Assembly (NCBI GenBank): GCA_018005585.1
Contig: JAGMZX010000030.1
Location: forward strand, 1 to 46,408
Source: Candidatus Hydrogenedentota bacterium
GTDB taxonomy: Bacteria > Hydrogenedentota > Hydrogenedentia > Hydrogenedentales > JAGMZX01
Direction: 5' to 3'
Length of the DNA stretch: 46,408 bases
A model generated the notes under the pieces. That model did not search any database, was not told the DNA's origin, and saw only the letters and a list, made by a program, of their open reading frames with translations. Below, in pieces: positions 26,479 to 40,750 of the stretch. The position numbers and the translations under genes are program-made. The first letter of the stretch is position 1, and every line of letters begins with the position of its first letter.

Positions 26479-27066
26479 TCAGTCGAGCGCGCGGCCACGC
26501 CCAATCAGTTCGCGCACCTTCTCGATAAGCTGTTCGATCTTGAAGGGCTTGGCGAGATACTCGTCGGCGCCACACGAAAAGATGCGCTCGATGTCGCGCT
26601 CTTTCGTCAGGCAGGTGACGGCCATGATAGGGATGCTGCGCGTCATTTCATTGTCCCGTAACGCTTTACAGACCTCGAACCCATTGATTTCGGGCATCAG
26701 GAAGTCCAACAGGATGAGGTCCGGCGTTAGTTGCGCCGCTTTCAGCCCCACCTCCGTCGCGTTGCTGACCTTGACCAGTTCGAAGCCCTCATCATTCAGG
26801 ATCTTTTCCATCAGCGCCAGCGCATCGGGGTCATCGTCCACAATCATGATGCGCTTTTTCACGGGACCCTTCTCCCGTGGGAACATGTCATATTTCTCCC
26901 GGAACCGGTCCAGGTCGTCCTCTAGAATCCGGTAGTGGCCTCCCGGCGTGCGCGATGCCTTGATCAGACCCTGCTTAATCCAGTTCTTGATGCTGTGATG
27001 CGTCACGTGGCAGATCTTAGCCGCTTCAAATGTCGTATACGCTTTCTGTTCGCGGTCCCCGGCCAT
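26479..27066 (-). CDS. DNA-binding response regulator with N-terminal excisionase/MerR-type HTH and C-terminal receiver
   Basis: 195 aa from ATG 27066, which has GGAGGA upstream. Residues 8-55 form a small winged HTH of the excisionase/MerR class: YTTFEAAKICHVTHHSIKNWI, then KQGLIKASRTPGGHYRI, where PGGHYRI is the wing. Residues 70-195 form a receiver: acidic pocket Asp77/Asp78, phosphoacceptor Asp121 in LLDFLMPEINGFE, Thr in AVTCLT, Lys in YLAKPF. The order HTH then receiver is the reverse of OmpR or NarL regulators. It binds DNA presumably in response to phosphorylation. No kinase is adjacent on its strand; the hybrid kinase 7 kb away is a candidate partner only by proximity. Converges with the aldo/keto reductase gene. 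Confidence 0.92.
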   Translation of the reverse strand: MAGDREQKAYTTFEAAKICHVTHHSIKNWIKQGLIKASRTPGGHYRILEDDLDRFREKYDMFPREKGPVKKRIMIVDDDPDALALMEKILNDEGFELVKVSNATEVGLKAAQLTPDLILLDFLMPEINGFEVCKALRDNEMTRSIPIMAVTCLTKERDIERIFSCGADEYLAKPFKIEQLIEKVRELIGRGRALD

Positions 27067-27299
27067 TGCTATTCCTCCGTCGCGTCGACGACCCCCGTTA
27101 TGCGCGCCAAGGCACAGATACATCACGGATGCTTTGTCTGCGCCAAAATTCACATTATGCGAGGTTTGTTAAGATTGTACACGAGTAGCAGCGCACTTGT
27201 CAACTCAGTCCTGACGAATATCGCTGTTTTCGCCATTCAGCCGGGCTTGTGCGGCACGTCCTGTCCAGTAGATTTTCTGGAATCAGCGTTGCCCAACCG

Positions 27300-29084
27300 C
27301 TACAGCAAAGCGCCCTGAAGAAGGGTCTGAACTTGAGAGACAAGGGCCAGTTCCTGGCTTTCCAGGCCGGAAATCAGCAACTGGGCTTGAATCCAAGGAT
27401 ACAACCCGAGGACCAGCCGATGGGCGATGACGTACGCGCACAAAAGAACAATAAACGACGCGGCGAGAATGCCGTAGTAACGGCGCAGGAAGCTGGCGTA
27501 CGTCCGGAGGCGGGATGCCCGGTTTGAAGAAGCGCCGGAGGCCCCGGTTTTCCCGGCTGCACGGTTCTGGGTAGTGGCGGGCCGCACCAGGCGGGGATAA
27601 ACGAGGCCCGCGGCCATAGCAAGCGCGATGACTCCGTACCAGGCATAGGTGAGCACGACCAGCCAGACTCCCGGTTGTCTGGTTGCCAGCTGGAGCAGAA
27701 GAAAACCCAGGAGAAATACGAAAAGCACGCCAAACGCCGCCGCAACGCACGTCAACGCCCATATCGGATGCGGAATGGCCCAGGCCATTCGCCCGGCGTG
27801 CATCCGTTTGGCGAGGATATAGACAATGAGATAGGCCAGGAAGAGCGCGGCGGCCGTCTGCAGGCAGAGAACGCCCGGCCGGTTCACGACAATAGCGTGT
27901 TCCCGGGTCCGTTCCTCTCGCTGGTCATCAAAGGCCTGGAGTTGCGCCTGGGCATCCTCGAGCACGGCCAGCCGCCGTGCCGCTGCGTCGCGTTCCGCGG
28001 CGGGCAGCGAAAGACTATTCATGCGCAGACGGAGTGCTTCCTCCTGGAAGAGGATGCCCATCCGCGCCTGGAGGGTAATCGGCGCCGTTGCTTCCTCGTC
28101 GGATTCCGGGTTTCCGGCTTCCGGGGGGGGGGCCTTTTCGGCGCTTGCCCGCGTTTCGTGACGGTTTGCCGTCTCTATTGCCCTTGGGATGGGGGCAATG
28201 CCGAGCATGCGCATGCCAAGCGCTTCGATTTCCTGCAGCCACGCATCGGTGTCGATCGGCGGCTGCGGTGTTTCGCCGCCGGACGGCGCGGATGAGGGAG
28301 CAGTCGAGCGTCCGCCCATGCGGCGCGCTGCCTGGTCGCAAACCAGGTCCTTGAGCTTTACCAGGGGCGCCAGGACGCGTTCCGTGAGGCGGCGCTGCAT
28401 CTTGGCGTACCATGTGCCTTGCCGGGGCAGCGTGGCGTGCCATAACGGTTCCGGTGTGTGGACGCGCATGGCCGGGTTGTCGTTCGTTTGCCGAATCAGA
28501 CTCAAGGCTTCCTGCATCTCGCCCAGTTGTGCGCGTGCCGCTGCCTCAAGATAGATGGGCAGCGCGTCCTCTGGGTCTGTAAACCGGCGCGCATCGCGGA
28601 AGAGGTCGCGTGCGCGGGTGCACTGTCCGTCCAGGAACAGAGCGCACCCGAACATCATCAGGATAAAGGGATTTTCCTTGTCGGCGCTGAGCGCCTGCTC
28701 ATACCGTTCTATGACCAGGGGGTCCACTGCGTACGATTCGTATATGCCTTGGCGTTCCCGGTCCCAGGTGCCATCTTCGATGAACGCGAGCGCGGCGAGA
28801 TAAGCGCCATAGCGGGGGTCTTGGGGGATCTTGCCGTCTTTCGGGACGAGGTTGCGCAACAGCGCCCGCGCCGAATCGTCTTCCAGCAGTAGCGCCATCC
28901 GGTACAGCCGCTCCGGTTTTGGGTACCGGAGGTAGTTTTCCGAGAACCACAGGGTGACCGTTGTCATTACGCACGCCAACACGGCAAAGCGGAACGCATG
29001 CCGGACGCGTCGCGCGCCCACCGAATCGGCGGGCCCGTCGGGCCGCTCGGATAACGGCGGATGTCCGTCCGCTTCAGGAATCAC
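27300..29084 (-). CDS. TPR-like multi-helix membrane protein carrying a C10 tract
   Basis: 594 aa; GTG start in the GTGA overlap with the pgi stop. One membrane helix near 28-46 is followed by a helical, TPR-like region (about 85-205: YEQALSADKENPFILMMFGCALF, ARDLFRDARRF, AAARAQLGEMQEALSLI). A Pro/Ser/Glu-rich linker (255-335) and a coiled-coil stretch (335-385) come next. Four membrane helices follow in the last 200 residues (about 395-415, 425-455, 462-485, 540-570). Codons for KAPPPE in the linker contain ten consecutive C on the coding strand. Not a recognised family; the plan suggests an inner-membrane scaffold with a soluble repeat domain. It is last in a five-gene minus operon. Confidence 0.82.
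   Translation of the reverse strand: MIPEADGHPPLSERPDGPADSVGARRVRHAFRFAVLACVMTTVTLWFSENYLRYPKPERLYRMALLLEDDSARALLRNLVPKDGKIPQDPRYGAYLAALAFIEDGTWDRERQGIYESYAVDPLVIERYEQALSADKENPFILMMFGCALFLDGQCTRARDLFRDARRFTDPEDALPIYLEAAARAQLGEMQEALSLIRQTNDNPAMRVHTPEPLWHATLPRQGTWYAKMQRRLTERVLAPLVKLKDLVCDQAARRMGGRSTAPSSAPSGGETPQPPIDTDAWLQEIEALGMRMLGIAPIPRAIETANRHETRASAEKAPPPEAGNPESDEEATAPITLQARMGILFQEEALRLRMNSLSLPAAERDAAARRLAVLEDAQAQLQAFDDQREERTREHAIVVNRPGVLCLQTAAALFLAYLIVYILAKRMHAGRMAWAIPHPIWALTCVAAAFGVLFVFLLGFLLLQLATRQPGVWLVVLTYAWYGVIALAMAAGLVYPRLVRPATTQNRAAGKTGASGASSNRASRLRTYASFLRRYYGILAASFIVLLCAYVIAHRLVLGLYPWIQAQLLISGLESQELALVSQVQTLLQGALL
28123..28132. repeat. Homopolymer of ten G (ten C in the coding strand)
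   Basis: Ten consecutive G on the plus strand lie inside the linker codons of the TPR-like membrane protein (about residues 317-321). The longest other G run I noticed is seven (near 3126-3132). A one-base slip would shift the frame before the four C-terminal membrane helices. Confidence 0.9.
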
Positions 29085-30457
29085 CCATTGCCTCCCATGA
29101 GGCGGCGTGCGATGCGCTTGCCCTCCTCGACGCCGGGCTGGTCAAAAGCATTGACATGATACAGCTGCCCCGCCATGGCGGTCTCGACTTCCAGCATATA
29201 CAACAATTGCGCCACCGTGTTTGCGTTGATTCGGGGCATGCTGATGCGGATTACGGGCCGCTGACTGTGCGTGAGCGCCTCAACCGTGCCCTCCAGCTCC
29301 GCGGCCATCAGCTCGTTCATCGTTGCGCCGTGCAGATAGGCGAGGTCCGGAACGCAGACGAGGCTATCCGGAACCGGGACCGTTTCGCTGAATTCCAGCA
29401 CTTCCAGCACCGTGAAGACCTTGTTATTCGGGCCTTCGCGGTACAACTGCACCTGTGAGTGCTGGTCGGTCGCGCCCAACGCCTTGACCGGTGTCTGGCC
29501 TACGTAGACTTCCTTGCCGTCGAGGTTGTTCTTCTTACCCAGACTCTCCGCCCAAAGCTGCCGGTACCAGTCCGCAACGTCCCGTAATCCGTCCGAATAG
29601 GGCATCATGACGGACATGGTTTTGCCTTTGCGGGTATCCAGCACGTACTGCAGCGCCGCGCAAAGGTACGCCGGGTTTTCTTGCAGGTCCGGCGAACTGC
29701 ACCGTGTGTCCATGACCGCACAGCCCGCGACCATGCCGTCGATATCCATGCCGAGCACCGCCGCGGGAAACAATCCCACAGGTGAGAACACCGAGAAGCG
29801 CCCACCGACGTTCACCGGTATGTCGAAGGTTGTGGTTTCATATTCCTCCGCCACCGGCTTGAGCAGGCTTGCGGGGGCGTCGGGGGCGGTGACGCGGTCC
29901 GGGCTTGTCGTAATTACGAGGTGGTCTCTGACGCCGGCCTTGCCCACTGCCCGTTCCAGCGCGTCCATGACTATCAGCAGCTGCAGCATTGTCTCGGCCG
30001 TTTCACCGGACTTCGAGATGGCGTTGTAGAGTGTCTTCTCCGGGGGGCACACGCTCATCATTCGTGCAAAGGTGACCGGGTCGATGTTGTCCATGACAAA
30101 GAGCCGCGGAGCGCCGCCGCGCGCCGTACTGTCGAGCAAGTTATAGTAGGGCGGGTTCAGCGCGGTATTCAGGGCGGAAAGGCCGAGCGCGGACCCGCCG
30201 ATGCCCAGCACGACGAGGTTCTCGTAGCCCATCCCTCGGAATCTTTCCGCTTCCGCCTTGACGCGTTCAATAACCTGCGTGTCCTTGTGGAGGTCATAAA
30301 AGCCCCGTACCTTGTCCACGCGGTCTTGCACGAGTGCCCCGTGCAGTTCGCGAACCCGGCCGGCCGTGCTGTCGAGTTCCGCGGGCGTGATGCCGTGGGC
30401 CTCACCGACCACGTCCGACATGGCGAGGCGGATGTCAATTCGGATGGCGTCATTCAT
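29081..30457 (-). CDS. pgi: Glucose-6-phosphate isomerase, short bacterial type
   Basis: 458 aa, the size of the short Bacillus/Thermus-type enzymes rather than the 550-aa enterobacterial type. Key motifs: VVLGIGGSALG (phosphate/sugar binding), NAISKSGETAETM (SIS-domain Ser/Thr loop), NVGGRFSVFSPVGL, GATDQHSQVQLY and a C-terminal LYHVNAFDQPGVEEGK, whose Lys is the conserved active-site base partner. It interconverts glucose-6-phosphate and fructose-6-phosphate in the cytoplasm. ATG 30457 is six bases after the DinG-like gene's stop, and its own stop overlaps the next gene's GTG, so it is embedded in a minus operon. Co-transcription with a helicase and a glycosyltransferase is unusual. Confidence 0.96.
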   Translation of the reverse strand: MNDAIRIDIRLAMSDVVGEAHGITPAELDSTAGRVRELHGALVQDRVDKVRGFYDLHKDTQVIERVKAEAERFRGMGYENLVVLGIGGSALGLSALNTALNPPYYNLLDSTARGGAPRLFVMDNIDPVTFARMMSVCPPEKTLYNAISKSGETAETMLQLLIVMDALERAVGKAGVRDHLVITTSPDRVTAPDAPASLLKPVAEEYETTTFDIPVNVGGRFSVFSPVGLFPAAVLGMDIDGMVAGCAVMDTRCSSPDLQENPAYLCAALQYVLDTRKGKTMSVMMPYSDGLRDVADWYRQLWAESLGKKNNLDGKEVYVGQTPVKALGATDQHSQVQLYREGPNNKVFTVLEVLEFSETVPVPDSLVCVPDLAYLHGATMNELMAAELEGTVEALTHSQRPVIRISMPRINANTVAQLLYMLEVETAMAGQLYHVNAFDQPGVEEGKRIARRLMGGNG

Positions 30458-30463
30458 GCGTCT

Positions 30464-33100
30464 TCAGTCCTCATGCAACTCGTCAAAGAATTCCGTCAAT
30501 TCCTGGAGCACCTCGTCGCGCGAACCGCGCACCATGCGCACCCCCGGCAGCGACTCCACGAAGATGCGGCCGTAAAACTTGGTCACGATCCGGGAGTCGA
30601 GCACCACGACCGCGCCCCGGTCCGTACGGCGCCGGATCAGCCGTCCGAATCCCTGCCGGAACTTTATTACGGCTTGGGGAACGGAGTAACTCAGGAAAGA
30701 GTTCCCGCCGCGGTCGTCGATAGCCTCGGCGCGTGCCTCCAGAATAGGCTCGGTAGGCACCCGGAACGGAAGCCGGGGCAGTATAACACACTGGAGCGCG
30801 CGCCCGGCAACATCGACACCTTCCCAGAAACTGTCCGTCGCGAACAGGACGCTCGCCGTGTCGCTTCGGAACCGTTCCAGCAACTGCGTGCGCGACGCCT
30901 CACCCTGCCGCAGCGGCGTGATATGCGAGGCGCGCAGATCGTCCCGCAAGCGCCGGTAGGTGTAGTCGAGTGCGTAGAACGAGGTGAAGAGCACAAACGC
31001 GTGCCCGCGTGTGATGCGCAATACTTCGCGCACGGCGTCCACGGATTCGTCCAGGAATCCTCGTTCGCTTGGCGAGACAAGGCCGGTGAAAATGCCGAGC
31101 AGCGCCTGTTCGCCGAAATCGAACGGCGTATCGAGGCAGACCGCGTTAAGCCGGTCGCGCGGGACCAGGTCCATGCCGAGGCGGCCGAAAAGGTAATCGA
31201 ATTCGCGCCGCACCGTAAGCGTCGCGGAAGTCATGACGATGGTCTTGAGATTGCTGTAGAGCCAGTCGGCCAACGGCTTGCCGACCTCGAGCGGACAGCG
31301 CGCAACTTTCACGAAACTGGGGTTCTCCGCGTCGATCTCGATCCAGCGCACGGTGTTCTCGGCCAGTTCCTCGCTGGTCGATTCCGCAAGCGCGAGCGCC
31401 AGCCGCTCGAGCCGCTTCGCGTAGGCGCTCAACTGGAGCATTTCCATTTCAATCGGCGATCCCTTCGATTCGGGATCCGGCGGAATGGCCTGCAGCAGCC
31501 GCAACAGCGCCAGGCAGGACTGGTTCAGCTTCGTGACCGCCTCGACGGACGGCAGCACGAAGTCCGCGTGCACGGCGCGCACGTCCGGGTCCTGCAGAGT
31601 ATTCGGTTTCAGTCGCCATTTGATATCACGGCCGATTTCGCCGCACTTGGCCGCGGCCAGCGCGCGCAGCGCGTCGAACGCGGTATTGAGCGTCTCTCGC
31701 GCCAGTGCAATCTCGGGCAGGACTTGTCGCTCAATGAGATCCTGGATCACCTCGAATGCGTCCACGGGCAGTTGAGGGCAATCCTTGACCAGCTTGAGGC
31801 GCAAGAACGGGATCAGGCCGCGTTCCTGACCGCGTTCCGTGCGCAGGAAGCGGGAAAGGGTGGCGAGCGCGCCCAGCCGGACCGCGGAAACGCCCATGTA
31901 CTCCGTCGCCGAGTCCTCAACGCTGTGCGCCTCGTCAAAAATCAGCCTTTGATAAGAAGGCAGAACCGACAAGGCCGAGAAATCGCCGAGTTCCCGCTTG
32001 ATCGCGAGGTCCGCGAACAGCATGTGATGATTGACGACGAGAATATCGGCCTTGGCCACCTGCCGGCGCGCGCGTGTGACGAAGCACTTCTGCTGGTCGG
32101 GGCATCGCCCCATCGCGCACGTATCCGATTCCGAGCAGAGCCGGTCCCACAGTTCCCGCTCTGGCACGAAGGGGAGGTCCTCGCGGTCGCCTTCCGCGGT
32201 TTTTTCCGCCCATTCCGCGATCGCCTCGACCTGCTCGCGCATCCGGTCGTCGTCGAATAGGGACGCTTCGGACAGGAGACGCTCCAGTTTACGCCAGCAA
32301 AGGTAATTTCCCCTGCCCTTGACGAGGCAACAGGTGAATGTCTCCTTGAGGCACTGCTGCAACAAGGGGATGTCCTTGTAGACGATTTGTTCTTGCAGGT
32401 TGATGGTTCGCGTGGATACGACCACCCGTTCCTTGTTGCGCACGGCCCAGAGCGCCGCGGGCAGCAGGTACGCGACGGTCTTCCCCACGCCTGTCGGCGC
32501 TTCCACGGCGGCGATGCCATCCTGGTTGAACGCCTGTGCGACCGCTTCCATCATCTCTTCCTGCTGCGGGCGCACCTCGAATTGCGGCAGCGTGCGCGCG
32601 AGCTTGCCGTCGGGACGGAAGAACCGGGCAAGTTCCTCTGGGTCCAGCCGCTCGGCTTGCTGCGGCAGAAAGGGCTCCACCACCACGTAGACGCGGCTCA
32701 GCCCGTTGTCGACTATGAGCACGCCGTGGCCGTGCACGCTGTAGACAGACGCCAGGTCGAGGTCGGCCTCGCTGGGCTCGAGATTGCCGGACGGGTGGTT
32801 GTGCAACACCACGTCGCGGACGCGGAGCCCCTCGAACAGCGCGGGCACCGCGTCGTCATTTCCCCGCGCGCAGACCCGCACCTCGCATACGCGTCCCGCC
32901 GCATCCAGCGCCCCCGCGAAGAAGACTTCGCGCCCGCCCGTCTCCACGATCGCATCGCGCATGTGATCAATCGCGGATGGCGTAATCCTGCGCAAGGCTG
33001 GTTCGCCGCGCACGTCTTTTCGGGGCATCGGTCCAGGCATGCTTTTCTTTCCCGTGCCGGATAGGCCTTCAATCTCGCGCGTCCCGGGGCAAGAGCGCAT
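30464..33100 (-). CDS. RadC-type JAMM domain fused to a DinG/XPD-family Fe-S helicase
   Basis: 878 aa from ATG 33100; ATG 33040 (20 residues shorter) is an alternative, and neither has a strong ribosome site. Residues 40-143 form a RadC-like JAMM/MPN domain: Glu58 in REVFF, then His100-x-His102-x10-Asp113 in HNHPSGNLEPSEAD, the full metal-binding set. Residues 150-878 are a DinG-type superfamily 2 helicase: Walker A EAPTGVGKT (201-208), KGRGNYLC with Cys268, then Cys328-x4-Cys333-x5-Cys339 (same spacing as the DinG cluster), DEAH at 389-392, SATL and the motif VI region QGFGRLIRRR. DinG unwinds DNA-RNA hybrids and recombination structures 5' to 3'. Gram-positive relatives carry an exonuclease N-terminal; here a JAMM domain takes that place. 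It is followed 6 nt later by pgi. Confidence 0.93.
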   Translation of the reverse strand: MRSCPGTREIEGLSGTGKKSMPGPMPRKDVRGEPALRRITPSAIDHMRDAIVETGGREVFFAGALDAAGRVCEVRVCARGNDDAVPALFEGLRVRDVVLHNHPSGNLEPSEADLDLASVYSVHGHGVLIVDNGLSRVYVVVEPFLPQQAERLDPEELARFFRPDGKLARTLPQFEVRPQQEEMMEAVAQAFNQDGIAAVEAPTGVGKTVAYLLPAALWAVRNKERVVVSTRTINLQEQIVYKDIPLLQQCLKETFTCCLVKGRGNYLCWRKLERLLSEASLFDDDRMREQVEAIAEWAEKTAEGDREDLPFVPERELWDRLCSESDTCAMGRCPDQQKCFVTRARRQVAKADILVVNHHMLFADLAIKRELGDFSALSVLPSYQRLIFDEAHSVEDSATEYMGVSAVRLGALATLSRFLRTERGQERGLIPFLRLKLVKDCPQLPVDAFEVIQDLIERQVLPEIALARETLNTAFDALRALAAAKCGEIGRDIKWRLKPNTLQDPDVRAVHADFVLPSVEAVTKLNQSCLALLRLLQAIPPDPESKGSPIEMEMLQLSAYAKRLERLALALAESTSEELAENTVRWIEIDAENPSFVKVARCPLEVGKPLADWLYSNLKTIVMTSATLTVRREFDYLFGRLGMDLVPRDRLNAVCLDTPFDFGEQALLGIFTGLVSPSERGFLDESVDAVREVLRITRGHAFVLFTSFYALDYTYRRLRDDLRASHITPLRQGEASRTQLLERFRSDTASVLFATDSFWEGVDVAGRALQCVILPRLPFRVPTEPILEARAEAIDDRGGNSFLSYSVPQAVIKFRQGFGRLIRRRTDRGAVVVLDSRIVTKFYGRIFVESLPGVRMVRGSRDEVLQELTEFFDELHED

Positions 33101-33146
33101 GATCCTGACAGGGGACGCCCTGTTCAGGCAACTCGGCGGGATGCGT

Positions 33147-37563: not shown

Positions 37564-38427
37564 ATGCCGGCCGACGCCGCCGTGCGGCTCATGCTGGCGA
37601 GGGGATGCGTCGAAGCGGCGCTCAATGCGTGCCTGCCGCCCGCGGCGGAGGAGCCGCGGCGGGTGCATGAGGCGATGCGTTATGCCGCGCTCGGCGGCGG
37701 CAAACGGTTGCGGCCCCTGTTGCTGCTCGGCGTCTGTGACCTGGCTGCCGCTGAGTGGAACCAGGGGTTGGACGCCGCCTGCGCCATCGAGTTGTCCCAC
37801 GCCGCATCGCTCATCCTCGATGACTTGCCCTGTATGGACGACGCGCAACAGCGGCGCGGCCGCGCCTGCACCCACATTCAGTACGGGGAAGCGACCGCGA
37901 TCCTGGCCGCGATTGGGATGCTTGCGCGCGCCTTTGAACTGCTCGCGCGGAACGCACAGGCTGTGCGCCCTGCCTGCGCCGCCGAGGCATTGGGCGCGCT
38001 TGCGGCCGCCGTGGGCACGCGCGGCCTCGTGTGCGGCCAACACATCGACCTCGCGTTGACGGGATGCAAGCTTTCCCTCAACGAGTTGGAGCGAGAGCAC
38101 CGGCTCAAGGCGGGGGTTCTGTTCCTGGCGGCGGTGCGCATACCGGCTCTCTTGCTGGACCTGCAAAGCGGTGTCGTACAGGGATTGGAGGACTACGCGA
38201 GGAACCTGGGCCTTGCGTTTCAGGTCGTGGACGACCTTCTGGACGCGCGCGCGCCGCGCGAAGACGCGGGCAAGACGACCTTTGAAACCCATCTGGGCGC
38301 ATCGGGCGCGTGCGCCCGCGTGCACGTTTTGCTCGATCAAGCCGTAGATGCGCTTCGGCCCCTGGGCGGAGACGTATCCATACTGCGACGGATTGCGGAG
38401 TATGTCCGGGCAAGTATCCAATCATAG
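37564..38427 (+). CDS. Polyprenyl (farnesyl/geranylgeranyl) diphosphate synthase
   Basis: 287 aa from ATG 37564, which has GGAGG ten bases upstream; ATG 37525, overlapping the previous stop, would add 13 residues. All-helical prenyltransferase: GGGKRLRPLLL at the start of the catalytic core, first Asp-rich motif LILDDLPCMDD, RRGRACTH, and second Asp-rich motif FQVVDDLLD. HIDLAL replaces the more common Q-DL motif. It condenses isopentenyl diphosphate with allylic diphosphates. The residues before the first motif (SHAASLI) lack bulky Phe/Tyr at the -5 position, which tends to allow C20 or longer chains; this is inference. It may supply the lipid carrier used by the adjacent glycosyltransferases. 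Overlaps the following gene by 26 bases. Confidence 0.93.
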   Translation: MPADAAVRLMLARGCVEAALNACLPPAAEEPRRVHEAMRYAALGGGKRLRPLLLLGVCDLAAAEWNQGLDAACAIELSHAASLILDDLPCMDDAQQRRGRACTHIQYGEATAILAAIGMLARAFELLARNAQAVRPACAAEALGALAAAVGTRGLVCGQHIDLALTGCKLSLNELEREHRLKAGVLFLAAVRIPALLLDLQSGVVQGLEDYARNLGLAFQVVDDLLDARAPREDAGKTTFETHLGASGACARVHVLLDQAVDALRPLGGDVSILRRIAEYVRASIQS

Positions 38428-40750
38428 ACGCCGTGTCCTGGTGCGCGGGGCAATCATCGGTCTCCTGATGGCGCTGGCGGCGATGCTGGGATTGTGGCTC
38501 GGCGAACTGTCCGTGCCGGAAGCGCCGCCGCCGGAAGTGGCGCCGCCGCCCGCGCCCGGACTGTCTGGGGGGCGTCCGGCCGCGGCGGCACCCGTAATGG
38601 ACGCGAATGCGCCGCCGCTGTACTTCTTTGCAGAACCCGAGCGCGGCGGCGAATGGTCCATTGTCGAGGCGGAAATCGGCATGGCCGCGAAGACCGGCCT
38701 GCACCGCTACGTGGCGGCGGTCAGCCTGCCTTGGGCGGGCGAGACGGATTGCAGCGCATTGCTGGAACCGGCGGCGCACATTATCCAGGCCGACCCGCGG
38801 GCCGCGCTGCTGCTGAAAGTCAACCTGAATCCCACGGACGAGTGGCTGCGCGCGAACATGGACCATGCGGCGCGTATTGGCGGTCAAACGCGCCGTTACC
38901 CCACACCTGCGTCGCCCGTCTGGCTCGACGCCGCGCGCGCGGCGCTGGCCACGCTCATGGCGGCGCTGGAAGAAGACGCGTTCAAGGACCGCGTTATTGG
39001 GCTGGTCCTGTGCGCGCTGCAAGACGGGGCGTGGCAGCGGCCGGGCTGGGACGACTCCCCCGCGAATCTGAACGGGTTTCGCGCATGGTTGCGAGGGCAA
39101 TACGTGCAGGACGAACCGCTGCGCGAGGCTTGGGGGAATGCCGAGGTGACGATCGACACCGCGGCGATTCCGCAAGTTCTGGAGCCCGCGGCCACGGAAT
39201 CCGTTTTCTATGCGCTTCCGGAACAGGCATCTTATTCCGATTTTCTGCGCTATACGGCGGAAAGCACCGCGGATGCCATCGCGGCGCTGTGCGTGCACGT
39301 AAAAAGCGCCGCCAAGGCGCCCGTGAAGGTCTTCGCGCCGTACGGCTATACCTATGAGCTGCTTCGCAACGATACCGGGCATCTGGGCCTCGGCGTGGTA
39401 ATCGCCAGCGACCTGGACGGCTTCGTCGCGCCCATTTCCTACGCGAACCGCGGACTCGGCGGCGCGGGAAGCTTCATGGGGCCTGTGACGAGCGTGCTGT
39501 TTCACGGCAAGGAATGGCTGGTGGTGGACGATACGCGCACCGGCGTCGCGCGCGACCCGGAAACGGGGGAGATTGCGCGCATGAAGGGCCTGCGCAGCGA
39601 GGATGTCTTCAACGTGCAGCGGCGCAACTTTGCCTCGGCGCTAATCATGGGCCTCGGGGTCGTCTGGTCGGACCCCGAGGGCAAGGGTTGGCTCCACGAC
39701 GAAGAGCAATGGGAAGAATTTGGCCTGATGTATCAGGCGTACGCGAACGTCCTGGCGAAGGAGCGCGAGCCTGCTGCGGAAGCAGTCGCGGAAACCGGCG
39801 ACCCTGCGTGGGGCGTTCCCCCGTTCCCGCACGCGCGCAGTCTGGCCGTCGTCGTAGACGAAATCAGCCGTTTCTATCAGCGATGCGACGAGACCGTGAA
39901 TGAATTGCTCCTGCATCAGACGGTGGATGCCGCCCTGCGCAGCGGCATGCCGACCCGGTTTTGCCTCCTCCAGGACGTTCTCGACGACCGCATGGCGCCC
40001 GCGCCGGTGTACCTCTTCCTCAACGCGTTCTTCTTGCCGGATGACGACCGGAAGCGGCTGCACGAAATACTCACCCGTGAACAGGCGTCGGCCATCTGGA
40101 TGTACGCGCCCGGTTACCTGAACGGGCGCGAAGACGCGGCGAATATCAGCGCCACGACACAAATGGAGGTAAAGCAGTTCGACGGAGCCGCCAGGAGCGG
40201 CTCGTATTCCGTATTGCCCGGGCCCTGGGCGGCGCAGGACGCGCCTTTCGGACAAGCCCAGGACTGGGCGCCATTGTTCTATATCGACGACCCGGATGTC
40301 GACGTACTCGCGAAGTACGTGGACTCCGGCAAGGCCAGTCTGGGCATCAAGTTTCTGGACGAAGGCTGGACCTCCGTGTATGTGGCGGAGCCGCTTCTGA
40401 CGCCGCCCGTGCTCCGGGAGATCCTGCGTATTCTCGAGCAACCGATGTGTTTTCGCGAGGGTGCGTACGGCTTTTTCGACGCCGCCTGGATGGGCCGCGG
40501 TCTTCTCGCCGTCCATTCGCAGGAAAGCGGCGAGCGCGTGATGGACCTGAGCCGCTACTACGACGTGCAGGACCTGTTCGACGCCCGTATCGGCTGGCCC
40601 CAGAAGCGCTCATTTGTCATGAATCTCACTATCGGCGAGACGCGTCTGATGCAGCTCACGCCGCTGCCTCTCTCCGCTTACGGTCAAACGGAGCAGGCCG
40701 CCGAGGGCGAGGCGGCCGAGGGGGAGTCCGTCGTCACGGGCGAGTCGTAG
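38402..40750 (+). CDS. Membrane-anchored GH42-like (beta-galactosidase-like TIM-barrel) protein
   Basis: 782 aa from ATG 38402, inside the end of the prenyl synthase gene (26-base overlap). An Arg-rich start and one membrane helix (about 13-34, IIGLLMALAAMLGLWLG) are followed by a Pro/Ala-rich stalk (38-65). The barrel region includes FRAWLRGQYVQDEPLREAWGNAEVTIDTA, a pattern typical of GH42 enzymes, and ALIMGLGVVWSDPEGKGWL. A second half (about 480-750) resembles the class I glutamine-amidotransferase-like trimerisation domain plus beta domain of that family. The acid/base and nucleophile Glu cannot be fixed by eye. The end is low-complexity (EGEAAEGES). The likely role is a surface-tethered glycosidase, activity unproven. 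Confidence 0.75.
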   Translation: MSGQVSNHRRRVLVRGAIIGLLMALAAMLGLWLGELSVPEAPPPEVAPPPAPGLSGGRPAAAAPVMDANAPPLYFFAEPERGGEWSIVEAEIGMAAKTGLHRYVAAVSLPWAGETDCSALLEPAAHIIQADPRAALLLKVNLNPTDEWLRANMDHAARIGGQTRRYPTPASPVWLDAARAALATLMAALEEDAFKDRVIGLVLCALQDGAWQRPGWDDSPANLNGFRAWLRGQYVQDEPLREAWGNAEVTIDTAAIPQVLEPAATESVFYALPEQASYSDFLRYTAESTADAIAALCVHVKSAAKAPVKVFAPYGYTYELLRNDTGHLGLGVVIASDLDGFVAPISYANRGLGGAGSFMGPVTSVLFHGKEWLVVDDTRTGVARDPETGEIARMKGLRSEDVFNVQRRNFASALIMGLGVVWSDPEGKGWLHDEEQWEEFGLMYQAYANVLAKEREPAAEAVAETGDPAWGVPPFPHARSLAVVVDEISRFYQRCDETVNELLLHQTVDAALRSGMPTRFCLLQDVLDDRMAPAPVYLFLNAFFLPDDDRKRLHEILTREQASAIWMYAPGYLNGREDAANISATTQMEVKQFDGAARSGSYSVLPGPWAAQDAPFGQAQDWAPLFYIDDPDVDVLAKYVDSGKASLGIKFLDEGWTSVYVAEPLLTPPVLREILRILEQPMCFREGAYGFFDAAWMGRGLLAVHSQESGERVMDLSRYYDVQDLFDARIGWPQKRSFVMNLTIGETRLMQLTPLPLSAYGQTEQAAEGEAAEGESVVTGES

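Follow-up and report, generated by a model that had tools for sequence, protein, structure and literature searches.

What does a RadC-like JAMM domain do when it is joined, in a single polypeptide, to an iron–sulfur DNA helicase, and on what would it act? The question is raised by a gene on the reverse strand, at positions 30464–33100, of a 46,408-nucleotide stretch of DNA from an uncultured Candidatus Hydrogenedentota bacterium (the whole of this stretch is referred to below as the window). The reading that we favour, with a probability of roughly 0.55, is that the gene encodes a housekeeping YoaA-type iron–sulfur DNA helicase carrying an N-terminal, metal-dependent JAMM hydrolase that acts at stalled or damaged replication forks. 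The helicase would load onto single-stranded DNA at such forks in a YoaA-like manner, and the JAMM domain would cut something at the site to which the helicase brings it.

A RadC-like JAMM domain fused to an iron–sulfur helicase

The open reading frame begins with ATG, contains zero internal stop codons, and encodes 878 amino acids. Its chain consists of an N-terminal RadC-like domain (residues ~39–143; 32672–32986, reverse strand) followed by a DinG-type SF2 helicase with MD1, MD2, arch, and FeS domains (residues ~161–878; 30467–32620, reverse strand). The former is matched by the Pfam RadC family (PF04002) over residues 47–117 (E = 7.8e-6; 26.3 bits, cut-off 22.1), and the latter by Pfam Helicase_C_2 over residues 691–852 (E = 2.4e-44). 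An AF2 model of the complete protein has a mean pLDDT of 89.4, and one of the N-terminal domain 90.2. Residues 1–27 are modelled with low confidence and vary considerably among homologues; translation may therefore actually begin at M21 or M25.

The preliminary description of this locus, made from the DNA letters, had named Glu58, His100-x-His102, and, ten residues further on, Asp113 as JAMM metal ligands. Alignment bears this out and adds Ser110: E58, H100, H102, S110, and D113 are invariant in 86 of 86 non-redundant fusion homologues, a set picked for possession of the N-terminal domain, such that the figure describes conservation of sites within the domain and not how often the domain occurs. 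The fusion thus holds the complete JAMM/MPN+ catalytic set (E, H-x-H, S, D) on a JAMM fold, and would be expected to bind a metal ion. That the first ~145 residues do adopt this fold is indicated by a Foldseek search with the model of the N-terminal domain, in which RadC (2QLC) was the best match (E ~1e-4, TM 0.4–0.5) and JAMM isopeptidases such as CSN5 and Rpn11 came next; sequence-profile searches agree with the RadC assignment. RadC/YicR itself (PF04002; 2QLC) shares with the fusion both the JAMM fold and the signature HNHPSG-x-x-x-PS-x-x-D, but is a short stand-alone protein. The 6.08-Mb genome around the window encodes a separate stand-alone RadC of this kind, 231 amino acids long.

An assembly join, a frameshift, or a chance resemblance would be the trivial explanation for such a protein, and its probability is virtually nil. 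A break at the domain border was looked for and not found. Among 40 genomes from the window's order, 36 carry the same intact fusion, which recurs in at least 80 loci of a GTDB genome scan and at full length in 55 of 58 Desulfuromonadia genomes (the match is partial or split in the other three); this recurrence rules the artefact out. The matches listed from the GTDB scan span approximately nine phyla and include, going by record names, Hydrogenedentota, KSB1, Calditrichota, Desulfuromonadales/Geobacter, Planctomycetota (Brocadia among them), Dadabacteria, Auribacterota, Dependentiae, and Acidobacteria; one Acidimicrobiia record among these loci may be a binning error. A single covalent protein, as first described, is therefore what the locus encodes. 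One Desulfuromonadia genome (G117:C59:53783–56390) carries the fusion as two open frames of 230 and 780 amino acids, which reflects either a frameshift or a real split.

The architecture is not new. RadC-DinG/RAD3 fusions were mentioned in 2017, when a nuclease role was proposed (Iyer 2017; PMC5512222), and a recent review named a subgroup "RadC-like DinG", reported its E/H/H/D site, noted its similarity to YoaA, and stated that no research on it had yet been done (Cheng 2025; PMC11981726). The Hydrogenedentota protein is a new member of this subgroup: it has the domain order, the E/H/H/D site, the α7-type helix, and the YoaA-like helicase of the Desulfuromonas soudanensis model described in the review, differing in the organism from which it comes.

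The helicase half compared with YoaA and DinG

The Walker lysine K207 and the acidic pair D389/E390 are present in 86 of 86 homologues, as are cysteines C268, C333, and C339; the fourth cysteine, C328, is found in 83 of 86 and is replaced by serine in the other three. A [4Fe-4S] cluster and helicase activity, with 5′–3′ polarity, are predicted on the basis of these residues, and the putative cluster domain covers residues 268–339 (32084–32299, reverse strand).

The preliminary description ascribed to this half every feature of DinG, including the cysteine spacing of the E. coli enzyme. The helicase residues are indeed those of the DinG superfamily, and the spacing of the last three cysteines is shared, but the overall spacing of 59-4-5 is that of E. 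coli YoaA, against 73-4-5 in E. coli DinG. YoaA is also the closer relative in sequence (31% identity and 268 bits, versus 27% and 160 bits for DinG), and its helicase begins with the same F-x-P-D-G-x-L-A motif. Among NCBIfam models, YoaA (NF053712) is the top-scoring named helicase family at 571 bits, under its 680-bit cut-off, and the DinG models fall below theirs. The best structural matches to the AF2 model of the whole protein are DinG–ssDNA structures. At the C-terminus, the model contains a helix at residues 861–877 (30470–30520, reverse strand) that is the counterpart of YoaA α7 and includes an invariant F871. Judged from these sequence comparisons, the helicase half resembles YoaA more than it does DinG, and for this reason the role of DinG in resolving R-loops, to which the locus was initially tied, is not the most suitable guide to its function; the fork role of YoaA (PMC11981726) is the one on which our reading draws. 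E. coli YoaA lacks a JAMM domain, unlike the fusion, and ExoDinG of the Staphylococcus aureus type shares with it an N-terminal catalytic domain, which in that protein is an exonuclease and not of the JAMM type.

Organisms bearing RadC-like DinG have been described as devoid of HolC (PMC11981726). In agreement with this, HolC was found in none of the 40 genomes of the window's order. The HolC family (PF04364) is nevertheless encoded in six of 28 other fusion-bearing genomes (loci L069, L074, L081, L090, L096, and L097), all of them assigned to Pelobacter, Desulfuromonadales, Desulfuromonas, or Geothermobacter. Because these six Desulfuromonadales genomes carry HolC together with the fusion, the absence of HolC is a poor defining feature of the subgroup. 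The review recognizes YoaA by its α7 helix together with a HolC homologue encoded elsewhere in the genome; the helix is present here, and no HolC was found in the window genome. HolC is the partner of YoaA, and with none detected across the order, recruitment of the helicase there must differ from that in E. coli; the presence of HolC in some lineages bears on the mode by which the helicase is recruited.

The fusion is also close to a single-copy gene. No second Helicase_C_2 protein was found beside it in the window genome, it is the only such protein in those order relatives that have one (the remaining four of the 40 gave zero Helicase_C_2 matches), and of the 28 other genomes with the fusion, 27 encode no Helicase_C_2 protein scoring above the cut-off except the fusion itself. 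A solo DinG alongside the fusion is thus normally absent, and the fusion is apparently the principal DinG/YoaA helicase in those genomes.

Neighbourhood, regulation, and joint inheritance

The gene lies directly upstream of pgi, which encodes phosphoglucose isomerase (29081–30457, reverse strand) and which follows the fusion in 18 of 23 Hydrogenedentota loci with sufficient downstream sequence. The two are probably co-transcribed, though probably without a functional link. The neighbours in the window—pgi, an aminotransferase, and a glycosyltransferase—are uninformative on repair, and no operon is conserved across phyla, as the neighbours differ from lineage to lineage. A mobile or defence gene was considered and rejected, given that the phage and plasmid collections yielded no match over at least 80% of the query and that the neighbours are housekeeping-like. 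The window genome encodes LexA; no LexA operator is obvious by eye in the 46-base gap that precedes the gene at 33101–33146.

Three other genes in the window deserve mention. The reverse-strand gene at 27300–29084 encodes a 594-amino-acid protein that matches no Pfam family and seems to contain membrane segments, and it neighbours the fusion in another 22 loci of Hydrogenedentota; that at 26479–27153, on the same strand, places a MerR-type helix-turn-helix before a response-regulator receiver domain in a single protein; and an 800-amino-acid open reading frame without a Pfam match occupies 38348–40750 of the forward strand.

The preliminary description supposed that a covalent link would place the two domains in one pathway. 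Their evolutionary histories are in line with the core of this proposal. Mean pairwise identity is slightly higher in the JAMM part (0.50) than in the helicase (0.46), and the distance matrices of the two parts are strongly correlated (Mantel r = 0.87; the best of 1000 permutations reached 0.12), which indicates that the two parts have for the most part been passed on as a unit. Joint inheritance across phyla makes a shared function likely. The premise that RadC takes part in fork repair is weak: radC mutants show normal damage sensitivity (PMC11981726), and E. coli RadC, whose gene is called yicR, formerly radC, in a 2016 paper, is not established in repair.

Candidate substrates of the JAMM domain

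No activity of a RadC-type JAMM domain has been reported in the cited literature, and position and literature favour a nuclease, whereas the catalytic set and the structural matches are peptidase-like. We estimate that a nucleic acid substrate has close to an even chance, that protein is a tentative choice, and that another target or a regulatory role is improbable.

As a nuclease, the zinc centre of the JAMM domain would cut DNA or RNA strands that the helicase exposes or displaces, much as the N-terminal nuclease of ExoDinG or EndoDinG would, and this is a serious, if tentative, candidate. The domain occupies the position taken by nuclease domains in other DinG subgroups (PMC11981726), and JAB domains of the RadC clade have been proposed to be nucleases in which the ubiquitin-tail groove is missing (PMC5512222, a view shared by a 2012 paper, PMC3482391). 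In addition, an MBL-fold exonuclease-like gene directly precedes the fusion, in the same orientation, in 12 KSB1/Calditrichota-type loci (L051, L053, L054, L056, L058, L059, L063, L066, L068, L073, L099, and L101). It is related to TIGR04122, the family of the ligase-associated DNA damage response exonuclease (in an NCBIfam scan of one of these 12 genes, the score was below the family's cut-off), and such a neighbour is consistent with a role in DNA repair, yet it could already supply the nuclease function in these loci. The cited literature demonstrates no RadC-type nuclease activity, the Foldseek matches run from RadC to JAMM isopeptidases, and the DALI search of the review found no similarity to nucleases (PMC11981726).

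The same ordering of folds, with JAMM isopeptidases such as CSN5 and Rpn11 nearest after RadC, and the invariance of the full E, H-x-H, S, D set argue for a protease, a possible but less probable assignment in which the helicase would meet and unfold a DNA-bound or crosslinked protein that the fused JAMM domain then cuts. The model for this is FANCJ, a DinG-related iron–sulfur helicase that unfolds DNA–protein crosslinks for cleavage by SPRTN (PMC12279946). By that analogy, one bacterial polypeptide combining a FANCJ/XPD-type iron–sulfur helicase with a JAMM protease might repair DNA–protein crosslinks, which we regard as quite unlikely. SPRTN is not a JAMM enzyme, and the ubiquitin-tail groove is proposed to be missing from RadC-clade domains (PMC5512222).

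A structural role of the domain is a further possibility. An 822-amino-acid relative from Fusobacterium vincentii (NZ_CP084075; L116:1492–3960) has an N-terminal domain that aligns co-linearly (hhalign E 2.8e-7) with the JAMM domain and in which, in this one record, all of the JAMM ligands are lost (S, R, T, and E stand in place of E58, H100, H102, and D113, respectively), while the helicase residues and four cysteines are retained; catalysis is therefore dispensable in at least one lineage. A fold serving chiefly to position the helicase or to bind a partner, with a structural metal site, would explain the retention of the domain without any ligand, and has a parallel in the pseudo-exonuclease subgroup pExoDinG (PMC11981726). 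As a general account it is unlikely, however, in view of the five catalytic residues that stay invariant in 86 proteins from approximately nine phyla. The preferred reading, a YoaA-type helicase whose JAMM domain would hydrolyse a target at the fork, accommodates either kind of substrate.

RadC is a widespread bacterial family, and the value of the present protein lies in the question of what a JAMM domain of this type targets, not in the discovery of the fusion. The F. vincentii variant offers a natural ligand-dead comparison. Its near-single-copy status, its strict conservation, and its link to a helicase with understood relatives make the fusion a direct route to the target of RadC-type JAMM domains.
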